From: Deltaproteobacteria bacterium IMCC39524
GTDB taxonomy: Bacteria; Desulfobacterota; Desulfuromonadia; Desulfuromonadales; BM103
DNA: 64,000 nucleotides
Direction of reading: 5' to 3'
Assembly (NCBI GenBank): GCA_029667085.1
Contig: JARUHJ010000004.1
Span: forward strand, 1-64,000
Shown in pieces: positions 18,436-19,208 of this stretch. Below the pieces are notes generated by a model. That model was not told where the DNA came from. It did no database searches and worked only from the letters and a program-made list of their open reading frames with translations. The translations under genes were made by a program, and so were the position numbers. Positions within the stretch are counted from its first letter, which is position 1; each line of letters begins with the position of its first letter.

Positions 18436-18630
18436 GACATGCTTTCCTGATTAAATGACTGTTTATCTACAAAGGGAACAAGAACTGTAATTATGAGTCA
18501 TACTGTACCTATGTCAATATATAAGCTAAACATCAGTTATCATTCTACTTACCCTATCTCATGACAGAATTATCACTGATCTTGTCATATTTCAACAAAC
18601 AAATTCACCGAGGTATCCTTGAAGATGTAA

Positions 18631-18660
18631 AAAGGGGCTTCCCCGATGGAAAGCCCCTTA
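18631..18660 (-). terminator. Rho-independent terminator of the rhodanese gene
   Basis: Plus-strand AAAGGGGCTT and AAGCCCCTTA arms form a strong hairpin. Read on the minus strand it is followed by TTTTTAC. It sits 30 bases after the distal stop of the rhodanese gene, which supports translation running through the UGA to that stop. Confidence 0.75.
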
Positions 18661-18689
18661 CATTAATCAACTTTTGCAGACGGGCCGAT

Positions 18690-19100
18690 TCATTTCGGCT
18701 CAACGGGAAACTGCCTGTTCTGCCATTCGCGCCAACCACCTTTAAGGGCATAAACCTTGGTAAAGCCTTTTTCCATCATTTTCAGTGCCACACTGGCACT
18801 CGTATGTTCATTACCTCAAGCGCAATAGAGAACGACCGTCTTCTCCCTGTCGTAGTTGTCGACCCACTGGTCAACACTTCTGGGGTCGACACGTTCGGCA
18901 CCGGAAACTTTCACTTCCGAGTTCGCCCAGTCGCCGCCGGAGCGAGCATCGAGAACCAGATAGTCCGCTTCGCCCAGATGCTCGTTGAGCTCATCAACAG
19001 TCATTCTTGGAACCGAGGCGGCCATCGCGGCGAAGCAGGCAGCAAAAAGAAATACGCTGGTCATTAGTGTCAGATAAATAAAAAAACGCTTATTATGCAT
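18690..19100 (-). CDS. Selenocysteine-containing periplasmic rhodanese (UGA read-through)
   Basis: A 136-residue rhodanese-domain protein if the in-frame UGA at 18816-18818 is read as selenocysteine. The N-terminus is a signal peptide (FIYLTLMTSVFLFAAC, then AMAA), so it is exported. The rhodanese domain has MTVDELNEHLGEADYLVLDAR near residue 32 (shown to 20: MTVDELNEHLGEADYLVLDA) and the active-site loop VVLYCA-U-GNEHTS. After the UGA the same frame continues for 42 codons with the C-terminal family signature GFTKVYALKGGWREW. Relatives I know have YCxCPNE here, so U replaces the second Cys. The UGA is followed by a bSECIS-like hairpin (18784-18800). ATG 19100 has GGGG 8 bases upstream. A sequencing error or nonsense mutation is the alternative. 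Confidence 0.8.
18777..18806 (-). promoter_or_regulatory. bSECIS-like hairpin downstream of the in-frame UGA
   Basis: On the minus strand a perfect 6-bp stem AGUGCC / GGCACU closes a 5-nt loop AGUGU; a lower CAU/AUG stem extends it across an internal loop. The stem begins 16 nt and the apical loop 22 nt after the UGA, inside the 16-37 nt window known for bacterial SECIS elements. A G is among the first two loop bases, as SelB recognition requires. Confidence 0.7.
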
Positions 19101-19208
19101 CGTCATAACCCCTTTCAATCTGATTCATTTCCCCAACTTTAACAGCTCTCGCTTATAGATGACAAGTGCAGTTGCCTTTGTTTTTTCCGGCGGGCGCTTT
19201 CAGAAGCT

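Follow-up and report, generated by a model that had tools for sequence, protein, structure and literature searches.

Rhodanese-like selenoproteins with a CxU motif have already been predicted in bacteria, where the family appears as a table row in two reviews, PMC13188914 and PMC9312934. In PMC13188914 (2026), the entry is called "Rhodanese-like domain-containing protein form 3", with the model NF041203, the motif CxU and the example TKB26178.1, and it is credited to reference 13 of that paper, Zhang and Gladyshev 2005. The same example is listed in PMC9312934 as COG0607 form 2, CxU, under "Predicted"; motif and example are identical, and COG0607 form 2 appears to be an earlier name of the form 3 entry. 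Selenoprotein sulfurtransferases are also listed in PMC1088965 and PMC2398784, and the accessible portions of these papers do not give the CxU rhodanese motif; in the accessible portion of PMC1794560, the word rhodanese occurs only within the reference list. A literature search that covered abstract openings and few subscription papers returned no experimental work on the NF041203 family.

Two other kinds of protein are useful for comparison. TsoB (NF045694) is a selenoprotein resembling a rhodanese/DsbD fusion, with two selenocysteine (Sec) residues arranged as UxxxxU. The single-domain rhodaneses GlpE and PspE share the rhodanese domain with the protein described below. To our knowledge, neither GlpE nor PspE contains Sec.

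The rhodanese-like gene and its internal UGA

The window analyzed here is a stretch of 64,000 nucleotides from Deltaproteobacteria bacterium IMCC39524 (contig JARUHJ010000004.1). Its minus strand carries, from 19100 to 18690, a rhodanese-like frame of 136 residues with a single internal UGA at 18816-18818. We propose that this gene encodes a single-domain rhodanese-like selenoprotein, probably exported, with Sec at UGA codon 95, a reading to which we assign a probability of about 0.96.

From the ATG at 19098-19100, the frame runs through 94 sense codons to the UGA, continues for 41 sense codons and ends at a second UGA (18690-18692). A previous reading of the sequence alone had counted 94 codons before the internal UGA, which the minus-strand sequence and its translation bear out, and 42 after it; the continuation is real, and the count becomes 41 when the final stop, included in the 42, is set apart. 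A ribosome-binding-like AAAGGGG (19109-19115, minus strand) lies 8 bases ahead of the ATG. The first 28 residues or so (19017-19100, minus strand) make up an N-terminus that is hydrophobic and bears an AMA-A cleavage-like site; it reads as a probable export signal, so the protein is probably exported; in the AlphaFold model, residues 3-24 of this segment are helical, with a pLDDT of about 61-63. Beyond the stop codon, a G+C-rich hairpin followed by a U tract (18625-18663, minus strand) folds at -26.7 kcal/mol (z -3.75) and is probably an intrinsic terminator. The strong terminator announced by the previous reading is therefore backed by folding, while a simple terminator scan reported none 3′ of the gene.

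A plain listing of open reading frames truncates the protein at the internal UGA, and reading through it restores the whole domain. With the Pfam rhodanese model (PF00581), the separate halves score 21.9 and 22.7 bits, at the edge of the gathering cut-off of 22.2, and the joined protein reaches 54.1 bits and covers positions 1-101 of the 102 in the profile, in line with the claim that the C-terminal half of the domain is encoded past the UGA. The family model NF041203 (rhodanese_LYCAU, "rhodanese-related (seleno)protein", an equivalog) gives 84.6 and 65.5 bits for the halves and 167.9 for the whole protein with UGA read as Sec, against a curated cut-off of 115. The motif that names the model is present: VVLYCAU corresponds to residues 89-95, with Sec two residues past Cys. 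By score, CxU motif and its one Sec, the protein belongs to the same family as NF041203, and we found no substantive difference between them.

The GlpE and PspE models lie much further away, with 38.8 bits (NF001195) and 17 bits (NF007627), respectively, both far below an equivalog cut-off of 102. The match to TsoB is also weak, 31 bits where the cut-off of NF045694 is 805. An AlphaFold model with Cys substituted for Sec (pLDDT 88.6, pTM 0.76) was used as a Foldseek query; many of the 50 matches listed bear rhodanese or sulfurtransferase titles, and GlpE ranks 32nd among them. It is thus well supported that the gene belongs to a selenoprotein family already known by prediction. As NF041203 and the CxU rhodaneses are already listed as selenoproteins, the finding is sound, and its kind is not new.

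Selenocysteine machinery

The genome that contains the window (G000; 3.78 Mb in 19 contigs, 99.99% complete) has all four genes whose presence the previous reading had made a check of its proposal, selA, selB, selD and selC, the last being tRNA-Sec. The profile scores of selB (405.5 bits), selA (620.6) and selD (361.8) are all above their cut-offs, and the three genes adjoin at C2:158,492-162,931. The tRNA-Sec scores 75.3 bits and is called tRNA-SeC(tca) by ARAGORN. A second match above the cut-off of the tRNA-Sec model (48.2 bits) was discarded, as ARAGORN identifies it as tRNA-Trp.

The selD gene itself (G000:C2:158492-159415, minus strand) has an early in-frame UGA within an SGU motif, and so looks like a second selenoprotein gene of this genome. 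The 51 bases from that UGA fold at -23.2 kcal/mol, an energy taken alone and without a control.

The machinery was also surveyed in 32 genomes, comprising 30 with a UGA form above the NF041203 cut-off, one with a Cys form (G149) and one below the cut-off (G189). With at most 94 tRNA candidates scored per genome, selA was found above its cut-off in 29 of the 32 and tRNA-Sec in 26; for the 30 UGA-form genomes under the same restriction, the figures are 28 and 24. Only one of these 30, the 59% complete G004, yielded neither selA nor, among the up to 94 candidates scored, tRNA-Sec. G149 has a tRNA-Sec and, close to a contig end, a partial selA; its Cys form thus occurs beside Sec machinery.

A conserved UGA and selection downstream of it

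Among 58 genomes searched, one of them G000, each of the best 25 rows contains exactly one in-frame TGA. Extending the search to 277 genomes of the class gave 34 NF041203 matches above the cut-off in 31 genomes, including the gene of the window. One in-frame TGA is present in 33 of these 34, and the remaining match, in G149, has no TGA and carries Cys in that column.

For alignment, we extracted 56 loci, 46 with an in-frame UGA (33 above the NF041203 cut-off and 13 below it) and 10 without; other class rows below the cut-off, with and without TGA, were kept out of this set. Of the 46 loci with a UGA, 45 share a single loop column for it, G213b having it elsewhere in the loop, and a second in-frame TGA is absent in 44 of 45 loci, with G189b as the exception. 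In the 10 extracted homologues that lack the UGA, its column is occupied by Cys. The proposal that homologues would show Cys or Sec at this position is hence borne out, and the YCxCPNE type of loop that accompanied it is absent from the 10 Cys homologues, one of which has FCGCKDD and nine [YF]SxC[PL]G[DE]E.

The same UGA is present in other assemblies, the nearest relative having 94% protein identity. Three public MAG contigs (JAOUDB010000441.1, SBFN01000136.1 and JAAXQF010000343.1), two labeled Desulfuromonadales, an order within the class Desulfuromonadia, and one labeled Deltaproteobacteria, also turned up; these belong to G003, G004 and G007 and do not count as further cases. Conservation of the UGA across genomes excludes chance.

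Below the NF041203 cut-off, twelve relatives with a UGA (L048-L052 and L094-L100) have it in the same column, nine of them in TYCTU loops, and were included in the hairpin alignment described below. One further locus (L091, G135:C13:3472-4265) contains two tandem UGA-bearing rhodanese copies, both above the cut-off.

The 41 codons past the UGA were compared in 14 non-independent pairs, several with dS near saturation. The dN/dS ratio is finite in 12 pairs, and all 12 values lie between 0.07 and 0.26; the two pairs without a finite ratio are G000-G003, with one replacement and no synonymous difference, and G000-G012, which is saturated. Three of the 12 pairs with a finite ratio (G000-G002, G000-G009 and G002-G009) have a higher dN/dS downstream than upstream. 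Downstream ratios this low indicate that the tail is not dead.

A SECIS-like hairpin downstream of the UGA

A SECIS-like hairpin occupies 18783-18801 on the minus strand, with core pairs spanning 18785-18799, a five-base loop at 18790-18794 and an invariant G at 18793. Its conservation was examined in 45 UGA-bearing rows (G213b left out), each trimmed to the same offset from the UGA, which makes the alignment gapless by construction. All five core pairs, from 20-34 to 24-30, form in 43 of the 45 sequences, and every one of the 45 has the loop G at position 26. Among the 10 Cys homologues, the core forms in none, and the G is found in five.

The strongest signal comes from columns 21 and 33. 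These are third codon positions and are occupied by C-G in 25 sequences, U-A in 15, U-G in 5 and C-A in none (Fisher p 4.5e-8, with relatedness ignored). The third positions 24 and 30 are invariant in the 45 UGA-bearing sequences and variable in the 10 Cys homologues. The outer pairs are less regular: of the 44 distinct sequences, 16 break the pair 18-36 and 18 the pair 19-35. For the seven-pair helix as a whole, 88.3% of cells are paired versus 83.6% in shuffled alignments, and the covariation score is 0.180 versus 0.109, with none of 500 shuffles as high by either measure. Two of the five covariation measures gave no excess over the shuffles, 294 and 239 of 500 of which reached the observed value.

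Folding of the window gene alone gave z -2.54 against dinucleotide shuffles and z -0.76 against synonymous shuffles, 45 of 200 of which fold at least as well. With synonymous shuffles of the 46 UGA-bearing loci, the mean z was -0.95, and nine loci were below -1.5; the corresponding values were -0.15 (5/46) for upstream control windows and -0.18 (0/10) for the Cys homologues. At its gathering thresholds, Rfam has no match in the window. Viewed comparatively, what characterizes a bacterial SECIS is nonetheless there, namely a hairpin shortly past the UGA whose small apical loop contains a G, and the relatives provide, through synonymous covariation, clean comparative support for a SECIS in the rhodanese gene. 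The sel genes, the conserved UGA/Cys column and the covariation of the hairpin together give strong support to the selenocysteine that the sequence-only reading had called probable.

Under the selenoprotein interpretation, a ribosome reaching UGA codon 95 would meet SelB with Sec-tRNA-Sec, placed by the downstream SECIS hairpin, and selenocysteine would be inserted. The C-terminal part of the domain would then be translated up to termination at the second UGA, and the mature protein would display the C93-A-Sec95 motif within the rhodanese active-site loop.

Other explanations of the UGA

Under table 11, the UGA interrupts the domain, just as it would in a rhodanese gene that had acquired a nonsense mutation and was decaying. 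Decay would hardly leave one TGA in the same loop column of 33 of 34 above-cut-off class matches, nor 44 of 45 loci free of a second one, nor downstream dN/dS values confined to 0.07-0.26 in 12 of 14 pairs; with both the UGA and the codons past it conserved, we reject a pseudogene as highly improbable, and the earlier argument that a decayed gene was unlikely is vindicated. An error of sequencing or assembly at 18816-18818 is conceivable because the UGA is one base away from TGC or TGT. It would have had to recur in independent assemblies that carry the same UGA, which leaves this explanation a vanishingly small chance, and it is rejected as well.

General recoding or suppression, by which the UGA would be decoded as some other amino acid, draws on the fact that the frame alone is directly seen. 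The gene itself ends in UGA, at a place where its relatives stop at TAA, TAG or TGA; the genome has Sec genes; and the 10 homologues without UGA all have Cys in the column and all lack the hairpin core. We therefore reject general recoding, which strikes us as very improbable, and retain the assignment of UGA 18816-18818 as Sec95, which the conserved TGA and the loop-column alignment place at the same position in all UGA-bearing loci extracted except G213b.

The active-site loop

The codon for Cys93, the first residue of the C-A-U motif, is at 18822-18824 on the minus strand. A MAFFT alignment was made with 12 additional ordinary rhodanese-like stretches, seven from the genome of the window and five from relatives. 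The C93 column contains Cys in 11 of these 12, which we take to be the catalytic cysteine of rhodaneses, and the Sec column contains Cys in none. The loop of the NF041203 family is two residues longer than that of nine of the 12, as in YCAVGSR--SAQ (ordinary) versus YCAUGNEHTSAS (window protein); of the other three, L025 and L028 equal the family in length and L029 is one residue shorter. An alignment with 3tp9 puts its YC under Y92-C93, and an alignment with 6mxv puts, for both of its domains, the cysteine of YC under the Sec column instead.

According to most alignments, then, C93 would fall on the usual catalytic cysteine and Sec95 two residues past it, and 6mxv disagrees. The earlier placement of the UGA at the active site holds for the active-site loop; a position on the usual cysteine itself agrees with 6mxv and not with most alignments. 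In the AlphaFold model (Cys for Sec), a strand ends at residue 92 and a helix begins at 96, and neither C93 nor the Sec column varies across alignment A2 (34 sequences).

Several relatives depart from the CxU arrangement. The nine [YF]SxC rhodanese-like homologues (L100-L108: G189c, G252c, G250c, G233c, G144c, G222c, G209c, G157c and G256c) have Ser at the C93 column and keep Cys at the Sec column. A gene of G189 (L100, G189:C24:102101-102457, minus strand) reads YUSUPHE, with a second in-frame UGA two codons after the first, and has a single hairpin at the usual place past the second one; its product is a possible UxU rhodanese, a motif that we did not find in the main text of PMC13188914. 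In L109 (G213:C121:28472-28846), which is rhodanese-like, the in-frame UGA lies five residues past the usual cysteine (YCSGSTU), a place occupied by Cys in L025 and L028, both ordinary rhodanese-like stretches from the genome of the window.

Gene neighborhood

We compared 19 neighborhoods (the window and 18 relatives), considering ORFs of at least 90 aa within about 4.5 kb. No neighboring gene is common to more than seven of the 19, and the neighborhoods did not yield a functional lead. An ORF of 469-498 aa, which we read as LeuC, is found downstream in seven, all of the same genus or family, and its presence there is most simply due to descent. Another ORF family lies upstream in five of the 19 and is absent from the window; the one copy scanned, in G009, is Rubrerythrin-like (PF02915, 25.1 bits versus 22.8).

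Possible chemistry

The Cys-x-Sec pair hints at reversible chemistry of the selenenylsulfide or persulfide type. The protein could catalyze reversible sulfane-sulfur transfer or thiol-disulfide-type exchange in the periplasm, by way of a Cys persulfide and a Cys-Sec selenenylsulfide; we consider the odds of such a periplasmic activity to be about even. That the C93/Sec95 pair itself performs the persulfide or thiol-disulfide exchange is our guess.

How the two residues would share the work can be envisaged in different ways. Sec usually sits at the reactive site of a protein, and Sec95 could accordingly be the essential nucleophile, with C93 as its partner or resolving residue. The nine homologues with Cys at the Sec column and Ser at the C93 column, and the position of the YC cysteine in both 6mxv domains, favor this assignment; the invariance of C93 in the 34 sequences of A2 and its match to Cys in all but one of the 12 ordinary rhodanese-like sequences, which never have Cys at the Sec column, oppose it, and we see the balance as tilting somewhat against it. 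A classical thiosulfate or polysulfide sulfurtransferase acting through C93, with Sec95 tuning the rate or restoring the reduced enzyme, would agree with the rhodanese domain and fold and with the usual place of C93 in the MAFFT alignment. Such an enzyme sits less easily with GlpE and PspE scores (38.8 and 17 against 102) so far below their cut-offs and with a loop two residues longer than in nine of 12 rhodanese-like sequences, and we hold it to be rather doubtful.

More boldly, the lengthened loop may have moved the chemistry two positions past the usual cysteine, leaving the Sec or Cys there as the sole indispensable chalcogen, as the [YF]SxC homologues, which lack the usual cysteine, would suggest; we judge this speculation unlikely to be right. 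If the chemistry has indeed shifted to the Sec column, the rhodanese fold would serve as the scaffold of a selenium-based oxidoreductase for persulfides or thiols in the periplasm, and the protein would not be a sulfurtransferase. The CxU, UxU, CxC and SxC forms among the relatives offer a natural set of variants for asking what selenium contributes to rhodanese chemistry.
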